Made by a program: the position numbers and the translations under genes. DNA of 64,000 bases, taken from Cellulomonas shaoxiangyii. Its GTDB lineage: Bacteria; Actinomycetota; Actinomycetes; Actinomycetales; Cellulomonadaceae. Below the pieces are notes generated by a model. It saw nothing but the letters and a program-made list of their open reading frames with translations, was not told where the DNA came from and did no database searches. The DNA lies in contig NZ_CP039291.1 in assembly GCF_004798685.1 (NCBI RefSeq), forward strand, positions 930,001 through 994,000, given 5' to 3'. This document shows, piece after piece, positions 12,714-19,915 of the stretch. Numbering within the stretch: position 1 is the first letter of the stretch; each line of letters starts with the position of its first letter.

Positions 12714-13433
12714 ATGGCTCAGCACAGCAAGGCGTACCGCTCCGCGCTCGAGAAGATCGAGCCCGGCCGCGTCTACGCCCCCCTCGAGGCCGTGCGCCTC
12801 GCCCAGGCGACGTCGACGACGTCGTACGACGCGACCGTCGAGGTCGCGTTCCGGCTCGGCGTCGACCCGCGCAAGGCGGACCAGATGGTCCGCGGCACGG
12901 TGAACCTCCCCCACGGCACGGGCAAGACCGCTCGCGTCATCGTCTTCGCCGTCGGCGAGCGGGCCGAGCAGGCGCGCGCCGCGGGCGCCGACGAGGTCGG
13001 TGGCGACGAGCTCATCGCCAAGGTCGCCGACGGCTGGACCGACTTCGACTCGGCCGTCGCGACGCCGGACCTCATGGGCAAGGTCGGCCGGCTCGGCAAG
13101 GTCCTCGGTCCGCGCGGCCTCATGCCGAACCCGAAGACCGGCACCGTGACGATGGACGTGGCCAAGGCCGTGTCCGACATCAAGGGCGGCAAGATCGAGT
13201 TCCGCGTCGACCGGCACGCGAACCTGCACTTCATCATCGGCAAGACGTCGTTCTCCGACGTCCAGCTGGTGGAGAACTACGGCGCGGCGCTCGAGGAGAT
13301 CCTGCGTCTGAAGCCGTCCGCGTCGAAGGGTCGCTACATCGCGAAGGCGACCATGTCGACGACGAACGGCCCCGGCATCCTGCTCGACCAGAGCAAGACG
13401 CGGAACCTCACCAGCGAGGACGAGGCGGCCTGA
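12714..13433 (+). CDS. rplA: 50S ribosomal protein L1
   Basis: 239 residues, normal length. The start is supported by AGAAGGAGAAC just upstream. Family motifs include [21 protein letters not shown] in two parts, the signature [20 protein letters not shown] (part) and [19 protein letters not shown]1 forms the mobile stalk at the E site and typically autoregulates its own operon. A strong terminator follows, so rplJL, usually next, is not continuous with it here; the CHAT island lies between. Confidence 0.97.
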
Positions 13434-13522: not shown

Positions 13523-14044
13523 TCACCACGAGAGCCACTCCGTCACGCAGGTCCCGACGCCGGTCGTGCACACCAGGCACACGGGTCCCTGCGGACGCGT
13601 GTCGATGCGGAAGTAGCCCACCTCGTCGGTGTCGACGTCCGCCACGTCGCCGTCGGGCCGACGCAGCGTGACGTGGCCGGCCCCGGCCGGGATGAGCTGC
13701 CCCTCGACGGAGCGGTCACCGACCTCGAGCTCCACCCCCACGCCGTCGCCCTGGAAGACGAGGGTGCGGGGCGGCTGCCCCGACCGGTCCCGCACGGCGG
13801 CGAGCCGGTCCTCGGTGCTGGAGTCGTGCACGAGCGTCAGGAGGAGCAGCTCGGTGTCGAGCTCCTCGCGCAGCGCGAGCAGGCCGCGGTGCACCGCGAA
13901 GGCGGTGTCGGCGGCCGCCGTCACGCGTCCCACGAGCGGCTGCTCGCCGAGCGCGGCGGCGAGGTCACGGGCCAACGCCTCGTCGTCCGGCCACGGGTCC
14001 CGCCGTGCGGCGCGGCCCCCCGTGTCATCCGAGTGCCAGGACAT
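13523..14044 (-). CDS. Uncharacterised beta-rich protein paired with the island sigma factor
   Basis: 173 residues; I recognise no named family. The first ~75 residues look alpha-helical (DDEALARDLAAALGEQ, TAFAVHRGLLALREELD). The rest is predicted as beta strands with a FQGDGVGVELEVGDRSVEGQ segment, followed by VTLRRPDGDVADVDTDEVG and FRIDTRPQGPVCLVC, resembling a transthyretin-like or carboxypeptidase-regulatory sandwich. There is no signal peptide or membrane helix. The ATG lies inside the sigma-factor gene, overlapping it by 20 bp, so translation is coupled. Its position suggests an anti-sigma or sensor partner for the sigma factor; this is inference. Confidence 0.75.
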   Translation of the reverse strand: MSWHSDDTGGRAARRDPWPDDEALARDLAAALGEQPLVGRVTAAADTAFAVHRGLLALREELDTELLLLTLVHDSSTEDRLAAVRDRSGQPPRTLVFQGDGVGVELEVGDRSVEGQLIPAGAGHVTLRRPDGDVADVDTDEVGYFRIDTRPQGPVCLVCTTGVGTCVTEWLSW

Positions 14045-14666
14045 CGCGGCCTCCTTCGCCGAGTGCGGTTCCGCCGGGGGCCGCGAGGAAGTGCGTCAGG
14101 GCGGCCGTCCGGCGCAGGCGCGCGAGGCCTCGCTGCCGGGTCGGGCCGATGGAGCCGATCGGGATGCCGAGGCGCGCGGAGACCTCCTGGTAGCTCGGCG
14201 CCGGGTCGGTGGAGAGCAGGAGGAGCAGGTCGCGCTGGTGCGCGGGCAGCTCGTCCAGGGCCGCACGCAGGGCGGCGTGCTGCTCGCTGCGCAGGAGCTC
14301 CTGGTCCAGCTCGGCGTCGTCCTGCACGTCGAGGCGGCCGGTCATCGGGTCGACGGGCACCGCCCTGCGGCTGAGGTTCAGCACGCGGATGCACTCGTGC
14401 CGGGTCGCGGTGGAGAGCCAGCCGGGCAGCGCGGCGGGTTCGCGCAGGTCGGCGAGGTGCTCCAGCAGGTTCAGCCAGACGGTCTGCGCGACGTCCTCCG
14501 CCTGCTGCGGCGTCAGCCGGAACTGCCGCACGCGCGCCATGACGAGACCGGTGTGCCGCCGCACGATCTCGGACCACGACTGCTCGTCGCCGGCCCCGGC
14601 ACCGGCGACGAGCTCGGTCGTCGTGCGTTCGGCGTAGGGCTGCCCCGCCCACCCGGAGGTGCTCAC
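14025..14666 (-). CDS. ECF-like RNA polymerase sigma factor of the CHAT island
   Basis: 213 residues. Region 2 is clear (WSEIVRRHTGLVMARVRQF, then AEDVAQTVWLNLLEHL and PGWLSTATRHECIRVL). Region 4 reads ALDELPAHQRDLLLLLS, then SYQEVSARLGIPIGSIGPTR and RGLARLRR, the helix-turn-helix that reads the -35. There is no region 3 or membrane anchor. The GTG at 14664-14666 is chosen because AGGAGG lies exactly 6 nt upstream; an in-frame ATG farther upstream lacks such a site. It is the middle gene of the minus-strand operon, 72 nt after the subtilase, and may activate the divergent CHAT gene or its own operon. Confidence 0.9.
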   Translation of the reverse strand: MSTSGWAGQPYAERTTTELVAGAGAGDEQSWSEIVRRHTGLVMARVRQFRLTPQQAEDVAQTVWLNLLEHLADLREPAALPGWLSTATRHECIRVLNLSRRAVPVDPMTGRLDVQDDAELDQELLRSEQHAALRAALDELPAHQRDLLLLLSTDPAPSYQEVSARLGIPIGSIGPTRQRGLARLRRTAALTHFLAAPGGTALGEGGRDVLALG

Positions 14667-14738
14667 CGCGTGCCTCCTTCGCCTCGGGGATGCGTCCCTG
14701 ACGCCATCATCGCGCTCCGCGAGGCACGTGCCCAGCAC

Positions 14739-16199
14739 CTACGCCCCCGGCAGGATCTGCAGGGCGTGGCCGTAGCCGGCGACGGGCTTGCCCGCGGCCA
14801 GGAGCGCGTGCACGGCCTCCGGACCGCCGACCCGCAGCTCCGTCATGGTGCGGGCGATCGCGCCCGAGACCTGTGGGGCGGCGAAGGACGTGCCGACCCA
14901 GCGGGCGAACGCGTCGTCCCCGAACTCCTGGGCGGACGCGGCGAAGTCGGGGTTCTGGCGGCCCGGCACGTAGGTGGACAGGACGTCCTCGCCGACGGCG
15001 GAGACGTCCACCCACGAGCCGTGGCTGGACCAGGTGGTGGGACGCAGCTCCCGGGTGAGGCCGCCGACCGCCAGGACGCGACCGAACGCGGCCGGCCACG
15101 TGGGCGTGTCGTCGCCGTAGTTGCCGGCGGAGGCGACGAGCACGCTCTGCCACCCGCGCTCGTCCTCGATCTCGCGGACGACCTCCAGCGCGGCGGCGAG
15201 CGGGAGCGAGGGCTCGTCGAACAGCGTCTGCGTGCCCAGGGACAGGTTGACGACGTGCGCGCCGTCGCGCACCGCCCGGATCAGCGCGCAGGCGACGTCG
15301 AGCTCCGAGCCGGCGCCGCCGGGACCGACCGCCTTGAGCACCCGGATCTCGGCCCCCGGCGCGACCTGCTGCACGATCCCGGCGACGAACGTCCCGTGCC
15401 CCGCGTAGACGTCGAGGTAGCCGTCGTGCGGCTCGGCGTCGAGGGGGTCCACGTTCGAGGCGCCCCCGTGCGCGCCCGCCACGTCGCCGGTGCGCACCAC
15501 GTCGCGCAGCCAGCCGTCGCTGCGCCGCTCTGCCGCGACGCCCGTGTCGACCACCGCGACGACGACGCCGCGCCCGTGGGCCTCGCCGCCGCCGACGTAC
15601 TCGTCGAACGTGGCGACCTGGGGCCCGAAGACGCCCGAGTTCGGCTTCATGATCGGCCGGCCACCGAGCGGGGTGACGTACGACATCGACACCGCGTGGC
15701 CGCGTGAGCGCAGCGCCGAGACGAGCCCGTGCAGGCGGCGGGCGCGGCGCGCGTCCGCCGCACGCAGCAGCACCAGCCGTCCCTCGAGCTCCGGGTGCTC
15801 CAGCGGGACGCGGACCAGGCCCGCCGCCCGTGCCTCGTCCTGCACGTCCTCCCACGTGGCCGGCGCCATCAGCAGCTCGCCCACCACCGGGAAGACGTCC
15901 GCGCCGTGCCGGTTGCGCACCACGTCGAGCTCCTGACCGCCGCGGTGCGCCCAGCCGTCCTGCAGCCGCGAGAGGACCGCCTCGCGGCGACGCACGACCG
16001 CCTCGTCCGCGGCCCCGGGGGACAGGTCGGGCGCGAGCCCGCGCAGGTACGCGTCGTCGTCCGGCTCCGCGGCGCGCGCCGCACCGGTGAGGGCGGCGGC
16101 GACGCCGCGGGCGCGCCCCGCCGGGCGCGGGACCATGCGGCCCCGGGAGTAGTCGTCGCCGAAGGGGCGGCCCGGGTGGGCGGCGGGGAAGCGTGTCAC
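14739..16199 (-). CDS. Cytoplasmic S8 (subtilisin-family) serine peptidase
   Basis: 486 residues from GTG, with GAGGAGA upstream. The subtilase triad is intact: Asp218 in VVAVVDTGVA, His268 in YAGHGTFVAGI and Ser438 in VGTSFAAPQVSG, with the oxyanion Asn360 in VASAGNYG. Residues 1 to about 195 form a separate N-terminal region, not a classical inhibitor-I9 propeptide. There is no signal peptide, so the enzyme should act inside the cell, which is unusual for subtilases. It is the first gene of the operon S8-sigma-173-aa protein and is divergent from the TPR-CHAT protease gene, 197 nt away. Substrate and activation are unknown. Confidence 0.93.
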   Translation of the reverse strand: MTRFPAAHPGRPFGDDYSRGRMVPRPAGRARGVAAALTGAARAAEPDDDAYLRGLAPDLSPGAADEAVVRRREAVLSRLQDGWAHRGGQELDVVRNRHGADVFPVVGELLMAPATWEDVQDEARAAGLVRVPLEHPELEGRLVLLRAADARRARRLHGLVSALRSRGHAVSMSYVTPLGGRPIMKPNSGVFGPQVATFDEYVGGGEAHGRGVVVAVVDTGVAAERRSDGWLRDVVRTGDVAGAHGGASNVDPLDAEPHDGYLDVYAGHGTFVAGIVQQVAPGAEIRVLKAVGPGGAGSELDVACALIRAVRDGAHVVNLSLGTQTLFDEPSLPLAAALEVVREIEDERGWQSVLVASAGNYGDDTPTWPAAFGRVLAVGGLTRELRPTTWSSHGSWVDVSAVGEDVLSTYVPGRQNPDFAASAQEFGDDAFARWVGTSFAAPQVSGAIARTMTELRVGGPEAVHALLAAGKPVAGYGHALQILPGA

Positions 16200-16270
16200 G
16201 GGAGGGCTCTCCTCAGGACGCAGGGAGGTGCGGTCGTCCGTCAGAGGGCCGCGGGGCCCGCCCTGATACA

Positions 16271-16288
16271 CACGAGCCCGCCCTCGTG
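16271..16288. repeat. Inverted repeat in the S8/CHAT divergent promoter region
   Basis: CACGAG and CTCGTG arms flank a CCCGCC centre, giving an 18-bp palindrome-like site between the two divergent genes. It could be an operator. It directly adjoins the tandem repeats. Confidence 0.4.
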
Positions 16289-16337
16289 CTCGCGCTCCGC
16301 TGGTGCTCGCGCTCCGCTGGTCCTCGCGCTCCGCTGG
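16287..16337 (+). repeat. Three 17-bp tandem repeats between S8 and CHAT genes
   Basis: Units at 16287-16303, 16304-16320 and 16321-16337 read TGCTCGCGCTCCGCTGG, the third with C for G at position 2. A further partial TGC follows. They occupy the middle of the 197-bp divergent intergenic region, where regulatory sites for both operons would lie. Confidence 0.85.
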
Positions 16338-16384
16338 TGCAGGCGCTGCCCGGTGCGCGGGCGCCCCCGGCGCGGGCCGCGCCC

Positions 16385-16390
16385 TAGGAT
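16385..16390 (+). promoter_or_regulatory. -10 box for a leaderless CHAT transcript
   Basis: TAGGAT lies 6 nt before the GTG of the CHAT gene, with no Shine-Dalgarno sequence between. No standard -35 is seen 17 bp upstream, which would fit use of an alternative sigma factor or activator. Confidence 0.45.
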
Positions 16391-16396
16391 CCGAGG

Positions 16397-19108
16397 GTGC
16401 AGGTGGGAACATCGACCGGCGGCGTCGCCGAGGGTGCGCGGGCCGATCGAGCGGCGCTGGTCGTCGACGCCCGCGCGCTCGAGGCAGCGCTCGACGCCGA
16501 CGCCGCGGACCTCCCGGCACGCGTCGCGGACGTGGTCGAGCGCGCCCGGCGCGCGGACGAGCCCGAGGCGCTCGCGTGGGGGCTGCGGGCGTGGGCGGTG
16601 CTCCGCCGTCGGGACAACGACCCGGCGGGGGCGGTCCGGCTCCTGCGCGAGGCACGCACGGTCGCGCAGCGCGACGGCCGGCCCGTCCTCGAGGCCTGGG
16701 TGCTCGCGAGCCGCTCCGTCGCGGAGCTGGAGCGGGGACGCACGACCCGCGCGCGGGCGGACGCCGAGGCAGCGCTCGCCCTCGCGGAGCGCGCGGCGCC
16801 GGATGACCGCGACGGCGCGCGGGCCGTGCACGCCCGCGTGCAGCTGCAGCTCGCGGTCATGGAGCACAACGCGGGACGACTGGTGGACGCCGAGGCGCGG
16901 TACCGGGCGTTCCTGCGCGAGGTCCCCGCCGACAGCCCGGACGCGGTCCGCGGCGCGAACAACCTCGCCGTCCTGCTCGTGGCACGGGCCGACTTCGACG
17001 AGGCGCTCGTCTGGGCGGAGCGCGCGGTCGCCGCGGCAGCAGGGCTGGCTCCGTCGCTGCGCTCGTGGCCGCACCTGACGCGTGCGCTCGTCCACGTCCA
17101 GGCGGGGCGGCTCGCGGCCGGGCTGCGCGACCTCGAGCGCGCGGCGGCCGCGTCCGAGGCCGCGGGGCAGTCCTCGGCGGAGTACTACGTGGAGTACGCC
17201 GACGCCATGCGTGAGATGCGCCTGCTGCCCGAGGCGGTGGCCGCGGGCGAGCGTGCCCTGACGGAGCTCGCCGCCGCCGGTGCGGGCCTCGTCGCGGTCG
17301 ACGCCGAGATCTCGCTCGCGGAGACGCTGCTCATGACCGGCGACGCGGAGCGTGCGGTCCTGCACGCGGAGGGCGCCCGGGCGCGCGCCCGGGCGCAGCG
17401 CCGGCCCGGCACGCACGACCGTGCCGTGGTCGTCGCCGCCGAGGCGCGCCTGCACACGGCCGCGGCGAGCGTGGCCGATCTCGCGGCCGCGCGCCGCGCG
17501 GCGCGGCGGCTGCACGCCTCGGGGGACGTGGCGGCCGCGGCCGGGGCCGCCCTCGTGTCGGGGCGCGTCGCGGCGGCGCTCGGGCTGGACCGGCAGGCCG
17601 TCGCGGCGCTGCGGAGCGCCGCCGACCTCGGCCGGCGGGGGTCCCTGCCGGTGCGCATCCGCGCCCGCCTGGCGGCCGCGCTCGTGGCCCGGAGCGCCGG
17701 GGCGGACGCGGCCGTCCTGGCCGAGTGCCGGGCGGGACTGCGCGACCTCGCGCGCCATCGTGCGGCGCTCCCGACCATGGAGCTGCGCGCCCTCGCGTCG
17801 GGGCACGGGGCGGAGCTGGGCGAGCTGGGGCTCGACGTCGTGGTCCGGCAGGGATCGGCCGCACGCGTGCTCCGCTGGATGGAGCAGACGCGCGCCGCCG
17901 CGCTGCTCGCCCGGCTGCCCGTCGACGACCTGGATCCCACCCCGTCGCCGGACCGTGCCCGCCCGGTGACGCACGCCGCCGGCGGCCCCATCCCCGCCGG
18001 CGGCCCCGTCCCCGCCGGCGGGCCGGTCGCGCGGTCCGTGATCGTGGCGGACGAGCAGGGTGCGGCCGAGGCGCGGCGGTCGGCGTGGCTGCGGGAGGTG
18101 GGCCCCGCGGGCCCGGTGGCGCACCGGGTGCCGGGCATCGTCGACCTGCGCGCCGCCCTCGACGGCCGGGTGCTCGTCGAGTACGGGCGGCACGAGGGCC
18201 GGCTCGTCGCCGTCGTGGTCACGGCGCGCGGCGCCCGCGTGGTGGACGTGGGCCCGGCCGAGGCCGAGGTCGCGCAGCAGCTGCGGGCGCTGGTGTTCGC
18301 GCTGCGGCGACTGGTCGACCCGCGGGGGCCGGCGGCAGCCGCGGCGGCGCGCACGAGTGCCGACCTGCGGCTCGCCGTGCTGCGGCGCCTCCTCGTGGAG
18401 CCGCTGGCCGTCGACCCCGCGGACGAGCTGGTCGTCGTGCCGGTCGGGCTCCTGCACGGCGTGCCGTGGTCGGCGCTCCACGACGGGCCGGTCGGGCTGG
18501 CGCCCTCGGCCACGACGTGGGCGCGCAGCCGGGCGCGGACGGCGGACGGCAGCGGCGGCGTCGTCCTCGTCGCAGGCCCGGGCCTGCACGGGGCGCAGGA
18601 GGAGGTGGACGTGCTCCGGCGCCTGCACCCGGACGCCCTCGTGCTGGGAGCGGGGGAGAGCGTGGCGGACCGCGTCGTGCGTGCCGTGGCGACGGCCGAC
18701 CTCGCGCACCTCGCCTGCCACGGGTCGCTGCGTGCGGACAACCCGATGTTCTCCGCGGTCGTCCTGGCGGACGGTCCCGTCACGGTGCAGGAGCTGCACC
18801 GTGCGGGCGTCGCGCCGCGCCGGCTCGTCCTCGCGTCCTGCCACTCGGGCGCCGACGTCGCGTACGCGGGCGACGAGGTGCTGGGGCTGGTCTCGGCGGT
18901 GCTGGCCCGGGGGACCGCGGGCGTCGTCGCGAGCATCGCGGCCGTCCCCGACGTCGAGGTCGTCGACCTCATGCGCGCGTTGCACGAGCGTCTTGCGGTC
19001 GGGGAGACGATGGCCCGGGCGCTGCACGGGGCGCGCGCCACCGTGGACCGCGACACGCCGGCCGGGTTCGTGAACTGGTGCACGTTCGGGGCGCACGGCG
19101 CGGCGTGA
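16397..19108 (+). CDS. TPR-CHAT domain protease
   Basis: 903 residues from GTG. Residues 1 to about 520 are an Ala/Arg-rich alpha solenoid of TPR-like repeats (for example PAGAVRLLREARTVAQRDG and VDAEARYRAFLREVPADSP). A Gly/Pro linker with PAGGP repeats (about 527-545) follows, then a C-terminal CHAT domain. The caspase-like dyad is complete: His775 in AHLACHGSLRADNP and Cys815 in LVLASCHSGAD. There is no signal peptide. CHAT proteases act as switchable effectors in other bacterial systems (for example TPR-CHAT of type III-E CRISPR, and gasdermin-activating proteases). The divergent subtilase and sigma factor suggest a proteolytic cascade here. The assignment is strong; the role is not known. 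Confidence 0.93.
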   Translation: MQVGTSTGGVAEGARADRAALVVDARALEAALDADAADLPARVADVVERARRADEPEALAWGLRAWAVLRRRDNDPAGAVRLLREARTVAQRDGRPVLEAWVLASRSVAELERGRTTRARADAEAALALAERAAPDDRDGARAVHARVQLQLAVMEHNAGRLVDAEARYRAFLREVPADSPDAVRGANNLAVLLVARADFDEALVWAERAVAAAAGLAPSLRSWPHLTRALVHVQAGRLAAGLRDLERAAAASEAAGQSSAEYYVEYADAMREMRLLPEAVAAGERALTELAAAGAGLVAVDAEISLAETLLMTGDAERAVLHAEGARARARAQRRPGTHDRAVVVAAEARLHTAAASVADLAAARRAARRLHASGDVAAAAGAALVSGRVAAALGLDRQAVAALRSAADLGRRGSLPVRIRARLAAALVARSAGADAAVLAECRAGLRDLARHRAALPTMELRALASGHGAELGELGLDVVVRQGSAARVLRWMEQTRAAALLARLPVDDLDPTPSPDRARPVTHAAGGPIPAGGPVPAGGPVARSVIVADEQGAAEARRSAWLREVGPAGPVAHRVPGIVDLRAALDGRVLVEYGRHEGRLVAVVVTARGARVVDVGPAEAEVAQQLRALVFALRRLVDPRGPAAAAAARTSADLRLAVLRRLLVEPLAVDPADELVVVPVGLLHGVPWSALHDGPVGLAPSATTWARSRARTADGSGGVVLVAGPGLHGAQEEVDVLRRLHPDALVLGAGESVADRVVRAVATADLAHLACHGSLRADNPMFSAVVLADGPVTVQELHRAGVAPRRLVLASCHSGADVAYAGDEVLGLVSAVLARGTAGVVASIAAVPDVEVVDLMRALHERLAVGETMARALHGARATVDRDTPAGFVNWCTFGAHGAA

Positions 19109-19381: not shown

Positions 19382-19915
19382 ATGGCGAGGCCGGACAAGG
19401 CAGCCGCCGTCGCGGAGCTCACGGAGCGTTTCCGTGACTCCAACGCGGCCGTGCTGACCGAGTACCGCGGGCTCACCGTCGCGCAGCTCAAGACGCTGCG
19501 CAAGGCGCTCGGCGGGAACGCTCAGTACGCCGTGGTGAAGAACACGCTGACCGCGATCGCGGCCAAGGAAGCCGGCCTCGAGGGCCTCGACGACGGGCTC
19601 GCGGGCCCGTCGGCGATCGCCTTCGTCACCGGCGACCCGGTCGAGGCGGCCAAGGGTCTGCGTGACTTCGCCCGTGCGAACCCTGCGCTGGTCATCAAGG
19701 GGGGCGTGCTCGACGGGCGCCCGCTGACCGCGGAGGACATCACCAAGCTCGCGGACCTCGAGTCCCGCGAGGTGCTGCTGGCGAAGGCTGCCGGCGCGAT
19801 GAAGGCCAAGCTCTACCAGGCCGCGTACCTGTTCACGGCTCCTGCCTCGCAGGCCGTGCGCACCGTCGAGGCCCTGCGCGCGAAGCGCGAGGAGTCGTCC
19901 GACGCCGCTGCCTGA
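19382..19915 (+). CDS. rplJ: 50S ribosomal protein L10
   Basis: 177 residues. The start [20 protein letters not shown] is fixed by GGAAGGAATGCC just before the ATG; the frame is open farther upstream, but through the leader. The N-terminal 23S-binding domain has [20 protein letters not shown] and [13 protein letters not shown]; the C-terminal helix that holds the L7/L12 dimers ends [14 protein letters not shown]. Together with rplL it builds the ribosomal stalk. It is expressed apart from rplKA here. Confidence 0.97.

Follow-up and report, generated by a model that had tools for sequence, protein, structure and literature searches.

A conserved actinobacterial cassette of a TPR-CHAT protease, an exchangeable serine protease, an ECF-like sigma factor and a small two-domain protein: a possible proteolytic sigma switch

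The interval between rplA and rplJ of Cellulomonas shaoxiangyii holds four genes, which encode a TPR-CHAT cysteine protease, a subtilase of family S8, a sigma factor resembling the extracytoplasmic function (ECF) group and a protein of 173 aa. The interval lies in a stretch of 64,000 nucleotides, here called the window (positions 930001–994000 of the 3.9 Mb host genome), in which all four open reading frames (ORFs) were confirmed, the TPR-CHAT gene being divergent from, and head to head with, the set of S8, sigma factor and small-protein genes. The four genes are a conserved unit of many soil bacteria, and the chromosomal position of the unit differs from family to family. The likely theme, as proposed in a preliminary description of this DNA, is regulated proteolysis inside the cell, linked to a sigma factor. 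The reading that we prefer, tentatively and with slightly less than even confidence, is that of a proteolytic sigma switch, in which CHAT cuts the small protein at arginine 85 (R85) and frees the sigma factor, the serine protease being an exchangeable partner. The helical N-terminal domain of the 173-aa protein, a putative soluble anti-sigma factor or adaptor, would hold the co-transcribed sigma factor. The constitutively made TPR-CHAT protein would be the sensor protease, its TPR solenoid meeting the trigger, and once triggered it would cut the small protein after R85 in its linker; the N-terminal domain would then be lost or degraded, releasing the sigma factor to whatever regulon it may serve. 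The cytoplasmic pro-subtilase would be the exchangeable serine protease, acting as executor or amplifier, which a trypsin-like protease replaces in sister cassettes.

The candidate cleavage site lies in the 173-aa protein (13523–14044, minus strand), whose gene adjoins that of the sigma factor. A structural model built from a 59-row alignment (mean predicted local distance difference test score, pLDDT, of 85) contains helices at residues 21–33 and 35–62, a strand at residues 66–74, a linker, and a beta-sandwich at residues 93–168. The N-terminal helical domain (residues 21–74; 13823–13984, minus strand) is thereby separated by a flexible linker (residues 75–92; 13769–13822, minus strand) from a predicted Ig-like or carboxypeptidase-regulatory-like beta-sandwich (residues 93–168; 13541–13768, minus strand). 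Residues 81–90 have a mean pLDDT of 64, the lowest block between the two domains, and include R85 (13790–13792, minus strand), the proposed P1 residue. Position 85 is arginine in 70 of 70 aligned rows, followed by G, S, A or D in 69 of them. It is also arginine in all 21 further homologues down to E 5e-5, which lie outside the discovery loci in genomes that may overlap the first set (next residue G, S or A in 20, T in one), and in 9 of 9 cassettes of the trypsin type described below (next residue A in seven, T in one, K in one). Overall, R85 is found in 100 of 101 aligned rows, the remaining row being an incomplete sequence gapped there, and no other column of this alignment is as well conserved: G143 is kept in 99 rows, G115 in 97 and R93 in 82. 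In a fresh set of database proteins (the 73 new ones among 120 listed of 292, less one that had already been used), R85 was found in 72 of 72, as was R93 (100%); 67 of 67 close homologues and five more proteins read by eye also have R85. An invariant arginine followed by a small residue or aspartate, in what the model shows as the most disordered stretch of the interdomain region, resembles a specific cleavage site.

R85 is kept while the serine protease of the cassette changes. Among 30 genomes of the genus, S8 is matched strongly (E 8e-92 or better) in 14, and is beside rplA in all 14. Nine others (G002, G008, G010, G020, G021, G023, G025, G026 and G027) harbor a divergent cassette in the rplA–rplJ interval, with a trypsin-like protease where S8 stands; in G026 the halves are on two contigs. 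The small protein of these nine cassettes was found by profile at 1e-12 or better, and in the six loci compared the CHAT and sigma proteins are 30–38% identical to those of the window. The trypsin domain scores 24.3 and 25.0 bits in the two proteases scanned, just under the Pfam cut-off of 27.6, and the motifs LTNWHV and GGDSGS are found in nine and eight of the nine proteases, respectively, the ninth (L155) being a partial sequence. Short (NP)FTEPFTEP repeats occur in both Cellulomonas trypsin-like proteases read whole (L148:846–2615, minus strand, and L152:6476–8296, plus strand). A weaker relative of the trypsin-like protease (E 5e-16 to 3e-54) is found elsewhere in 12 of the 14 S8-type genomes, and the exchange therefore concerns the locus rather than gene content. 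Seven further genomes (G001, G004, G009, G013, G015, G017 and G028) contain no cassette or rplJ in the stretch downstream of rplA (shorter in G013), a result that applies to this locus only.

A comparable arrangement is found in another family, in genome G212, where a trypsin-like relative (4e-13) is divergent from CHAT in the place of S8 and no S8 of the family occurs in the 9 kb read. This protease (L101:3832–5406, minus strand) has EPHYQA-type repeats. R85 and the CHAT histidine and cysteine are kept in all ten trypsin-type cassettes, that is, the nine from Cellulomonas and that of G212. A midpoint-rooted tree of 87 CHAT proteins, built by a quick method, separates the two Cellulomonas types widely; L107, L109 and L099, which are S8-type and on long branches, form the sister group of the trypsin type, and L101, the locus of G212, falls among S8-type proteins. 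The simplest reading is that the subtilase has been replaced by a trypsin-like protease at least twice, together with exchange of the whole cassette at one site. Since R85 is constant while the serine protease changes family, the reader of the site should be the constant protease, CHAT.

To assess conservation of the unit, the scan of named genomes used S8 alone, as an alignment of 22 sequences, leaving the other genes free to be absent. The counts refer to the best 80 loci of at least 459 S8 relatives, all from Actinomycetota, and hold for the closest S8 relatives; those for CHAT, sigma factor and small protein use models made from the four gene clusters most frequent in the same 80 loci. CHAT is found in 77, the sigma factor in 72 and the small protein in 70 of these loci, and all four genes in 69, a grouping that is not due to chance. 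A tblastn search of the 80 loci with the window's own proteins gave a similar picture, and the next commonest neighbour cluster occurs in 17 loci at most. Several of the 11 incomplete loci end at contig edges (for example L032, L053, L067 and L092). Gene order is variable: CHAT is divergent from the S8–sigma–small protein set in 29 of the 69 complete loci, all four genes are co-directional in 22, the sigma pair is inverted beside a divergent CHAT and S8 in 10, and other orders make up 8. The sigma factor and small protein are adjacent on the same strand in 69 of the 70 loci having both, their profile matches being no more than 20 bp apart in 57 of 69 and 564 bp apart at the widest (L048). As many as 17 of the 80 loci (L053 and others, many titled Actinomadura) have the cassette beside fatty-acid-synthesis-like and DUF3145-like genes, as named by reading, so that its position seems to hold steady within a lineage and to change from one lineage to another. 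The second match to the S8 family in Cellulomonas terrae (L021:13224–14312) lies between the small protein and rplA.

The small-protein alignment was also run against 198 genomes sampled evenly across the phylum, yielding 31 matches in 25 genomes. By hand reading, 21 of the 31 have a CHAT-family gene (E ≤ 1e-30) within 10 kb. Three of the ten unlinked matches are weak and C-terminal (G036, G183 and the second of G224), and the other seven (two in G071 and one each in G147, G115, G218, G191 and G181), some on short contigs, come from genomes with CHAT elsewhere. Altogether, 23 of the 25 genomes hold CHAT at E ≤ 1e-60, and none of the 20 genomes examined among the 173 without a match does so at 1e-30 (best 1.2e-21, partial). 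The CHAT–S8 pair and the sigma–small protein pair thus tend to co-occur even if unlinked. G071 contains three small-protein matches and three CHAT–S8 pairs over several contigs, one set of them together, which could represent paralogous switches operating in trans. Apparent fusions were considered as Rosetta-stone evidence and rejected: P0081 (S8 and sigma factor) looks like frameshifted draft sequence, and the L027 fusions (sigma factor with small protein, CHAT with S8) in Pseudonocardia sp. CNS-139 contain frame changes inside genes, probably draft frameshifts.

Both proteases appear intact, as the preliminary description held. The TPR-CHAT protein (16397–19108, plus strand; 903 aa from a GTG start) is matched by PF12770 at 2.2e-29, with 103.3 bits against a cut-off of 24, which places it in the CHAT family, and its TPR matches fall below cut-off in the Pfam scan. 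The CHAT domain spans residues 661–887 (about 18377–19057, plus strand) and contains H775 and C815, both unchanged in the 70 rows having that column out of 78 aligned. Chain 8rot, not tied here to any paper, is the top-scoring CHAT-named chain among the matches listed (60 of 142). The subtilase (14739–16199, minus strand) is 486 aa long from a GTG start, a mechanical ORF call of 638 aa having been rejected, and belongs to family S8 by PF00082 (9.6e-30), its D218, H268 and S438 triad being unchanged in 81 of 81 aligned rows. No signal-peptide-like stretch was seen at its N-terminus on inspection by eye, as had been noted before. In its model (mean pLDDT 87), an N-terminal helical region precedes an I9-like prodomain of beta-alpha-beta-beta-alpha-beta order (15675–15890, minus strand). 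Foldseek ranks fervidolysin first, with 451 columns aligned, and puts pro-subtilisin E and ProN-Tk-SP at ranks 13 and 14; many other matches span the catalytic domain alone. The helical region and I9-like prodomain suggest that S8 is probably synthesized as a zymogen in the cytoplasm. It shares the fold with N-terminal prodomain with subtilases that have an I9-like prosegment, such as fervidolysin, pro-subtilisin E and Tk-subtilisin; unlike these, it has no visible signal peptide, carries extra N-terminal helices and is genetically linked to CHAT and a sigma factor. CHAT has one and S8 four whole-genome matches in the host.

The sigma factor gene (14025–14738, minus strand) has its likely start at a GTG at 14666, judged by an AAGGAGG site. 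Its product contains region 2 (PF04542, 8.8e-10) and region 4 (PF08281, 7.6e-6), both over cut-off, is matched by TIGR02937 at 60.7 bits (cut-off 42.9) and has no region 3 family listed; it is accordingly an ECF sigma factor in possessing only regions 2 and 4. Upstream of CHAT, a –10-like TAGGAT (16385–16390, plus strand) is found 6 nt before the start codon, as in a leaderless promoter. A TANNNT-N4-8-RTG box is present in 21 of 37 CHAT/S8 divergent regions longer than 80 nt (from 50 extracted; the window's own region, which ended short of its GTG, is not among the 21), and 200 base shuffles gave a mean of 3.5 and a maximum of 9. This housekeeping-type box suggests constitutive, leaderless expression of CHAT, which would fit a standing sensor. 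Between the start codons of S8 and CHAT there are also 3.2 copies of a 17-bp unit (GTGCTCGCGCTCCGCTG; 94% matches) at 16286–16340.

The small protein is matched by neither Pfam nor PADLOC families, and its single NCBIfam match (E 0.043) is meaningless. Its fold matches nothing in the PDB at E ≤ 0.001, the best of several weak matches being 0.013. A match to a biofilm surface protein in a PDB profile search (8.4e-7 for the whole chain) was given little weight, its best stretch (0.019) lying partly on an apparent purification tag. PF13620 matches distant members below cut-off (best 2.4e-5). This carboxypeptidase regulatory-like domain is not a peptidase, and such a domain may explain why the literature speaks of a "carboxypeptidase" at this position. 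Some N-terminal domains resemble anti-sigma factors. The divergent set comprises eight members (L110, L111, L113 and L167–L171), and in one of these, L170, residues 12–87 match the NCBIfam anti-sigma factor model NF052375 at 5.3e-5; the corresponding region is matched in L113 (0.011), L169 (0.016) and L171 (0.028). No anti-sigma model matches L110, L111, L168, L107 or L112. In all, 4 of 11 members scanned have such a match, with values from 5.3e-5 to 0.028, L167 having been scanned without its first part.

Several observations weigh against a sigma switch operated by CHAT. All four anti-sigma matches are far below the model's 100-bit cut-off, and the window protein itself matches no anti-sigma model in the NCBIfam scan. 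Four loci (L031, L037, L050 and L093) are S8–CHAT pairs with long flanks that have no sigma factor or small protein nearby. The aligner may favour stacking of linker arginines, a caveat on the invariance of R85, which could instead be a docking or structural residue. In CHAT, no invariant aspartate can be assigned to an S1 pocket, the candidates D792 and D852 being present in 66 and 57 of 70 aligned rows, respectively. The best spaced dyad for an ECF-type promoter is shared by 4 of the 12 Cellulomonas regions for each side, against 2–3 of 12 in ten shuffles. With no shared ECF-type motif in these 12 regions and a housekeeping-type box before CHAT, the earlier proposal that the sigma factor sets expression of the cassette loses ground. 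Finally, an invariant P1 residue is not required by the Craspase precedent, as alanine scanning of its substrate Csx30 found no essential residue, loop length mattering instead, and the cut is in a loop of the C-terminal domain, according to the available part of that report (PMC10028731).

In Craspase, the TPR-CHAT protease Csx29 cuts, in a flexible loop, the inhibitor Csx30, whose N-terminal domain binds the ECF factor CASP-sigma (PMC10028731). The present cassette likewise has a TPR-CHAT protease, a two-domain protein with a flexible stretch that is proposed to inhibit a sigma factor, and an ECF sigma factor; it differs in having an extra serine protease, a chromosomal core locus and a proposed fixed P1 in the linker between domains (PMC10028731). 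The Csx29 model NF041237 scores 15.8 bits on the window CHAT against a cut-off of 300, and the protein may thus work like Craspase without being a member. No Cas7-11-like ORF is found in the 10 kb read (11.5–21.5 kb of the window), a search that extended neither to CRISPR arrays nor to other parts of the genome. A protease that cuts the anti-sigma factor of an ECF sigma factor, as proposed here, is also known from CalpL/CalpT/CalpS, where CalpL is a Lon-SAVED protease triggered by cyclic oligoadenylate and, in the text available, has no CHAT domain or serine protease partner; SAVED-CHAT is named in the same paper (PMC11417357). Caspase/EACC2 neighbourhoods similarly bring together a caspase-fold protease, TPR, an ECF sigma factor and trypsin-like peptidases, yet are characterized by EACC2 and DUF1822 (TPR protein) domains, and the available text mentions no such small protein (PMC8195603).

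ECF54 is among the closest known systems. The preliminary description could not name this kind of island, whose context is given in a review of ECF groups: ECF54 is an actinobacterial ECF sigma factor whose conserved neighbours encode a "carboxypeptidase," a subtilase and CHAT, and for which control by proteases without an anti-sigma factor was proposed (PMC8999054). The window matches this context, the carboxypeptidase-type domain being found solely as sub-threshold PF13620 in distant members. The model member of ECF54 is from Geodermatophilus, a genus in which all four genes were found here (L033) (PMC8999054). Unlike the model presented here, the ECF54 proposal includes no anti-sigma factor or cut site, and trypsin-like replacement is not mentioned in the portion of the review available (PMC8999054). 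Searches of open-access literature listed nothing on this cassette apart from the ECF54 statement; as far as they show, the small protein as a candidate anti-sigma factor, the invariant candidate cut site within it and the exchange of serine proteases at a single locus are new.

Other ways of connecting the four proteins can be set against a switch cut by CHAT. It is unlikely, though the preliminary description suggested as much, that one protease activates the other, CHAT cutting the pro-subtilase, which then acts while the sigma factor merely sets expression. The inhibitory-type prodomain and floppy linker of S8 would suit such a cascade, CHAT and S8 adjoin in most of the 80 loci, some loci consist of just these two genes, and a cascade from CHAT to a second protease is reportedly known in type III-B CRISPR. 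However, the pro-linker contains no invariant arginine or lysine across the aligned S8 proteins, subtilase prodomains are usually self-processed, a trypsin-like protease can occupy the place of S8, and the conserved candidate cut site is in the small protein. Somewhat more improbable is the view that R85 is structural or serves in docking and that the small protein regulates without ever being cut. The near-invariant G143, G115 and F145 are probably structural, and the nearby R93 is also conserved; against this, R85 lies in a low-confidence linker, persists, unlike R93, in the most divergent members, and almost always precedes a small residue or aspartate.

Two proposals appear less probable again. 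According to the one published for ECF54, the peptidases degrade the sigma factor to keep it off, with no anti-sigma factor involved, a statement made in the review from gene context (PMC8999054). What was called a carboxypeptidase, however, resembles a beta-sandwich without enzymatic function, accompanied by an additional N-terminal domain, in a protein that tracks the sigma factor and has some anti-sigma-like distant members. We give equally little credence to a serine protease as the enzyme that cuts the small protein, with CHAT as its activator or scaffold: S8 and trypsin-like enzymes are Arg-specific in some families, but two unrelated proteases would then have to share one site, which stays constant while they change. 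Cleavage by CHAT at R85 remains the reading that we prefer.

The possibility of phage defence raised by the preliminary description is not supported. PADLOC matches are confined to S8 (subtilase, 1.1e-14; IetS, 1.2e-7 over a short stretch), with nothing on CHAT, the sigma factor or the small protein, and no anti-phage system is recognized. At the limits used, plasmids (PLSDB) gave no match for the window CHAT or small protein, and phages none for the window CHAT. The role may be in stress, self-surveillance or defence. The surroundings are those of a core locus: rplA (12714–13433, plus strand) and rplJ (ATG at 19382, plus strand), both named by reading of the sequence, flank the cassette, and the remaining real-looking ORFs between 11.5 and 21.5 kb of the window read as NusG and ribosomal proteins.

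A broader interpretation, which we regard as rather doubtful, is that the cassette represents a widespread, CRISPR-free chromosomal relay of TPR-CHAT, anti-sigma factor and ECF sigma factor, of which Craspase would be an RNA-guided derivative or a convergent counterpart, the core being constant and the serine protease a swapped cartridge. If true, a cartridge swap between unrelated families at one site is the pattern that diversifying pressure on a conflict or self-surveillance system would be expected to leave. The model lends itself to testing, since cleavage is proposed at a single residue of a 173-aa protein. If it holds, an anti-sigma factor would be proposed for a group said to have none, many actinobacteria would gain a cytoplasmic, protease-released sigma switch (the small protein is found in 25 of 198 genomes, two of them weakly), and the cassette would offer a CRISPR-free model of TPR-CHAT sensing and signalling.

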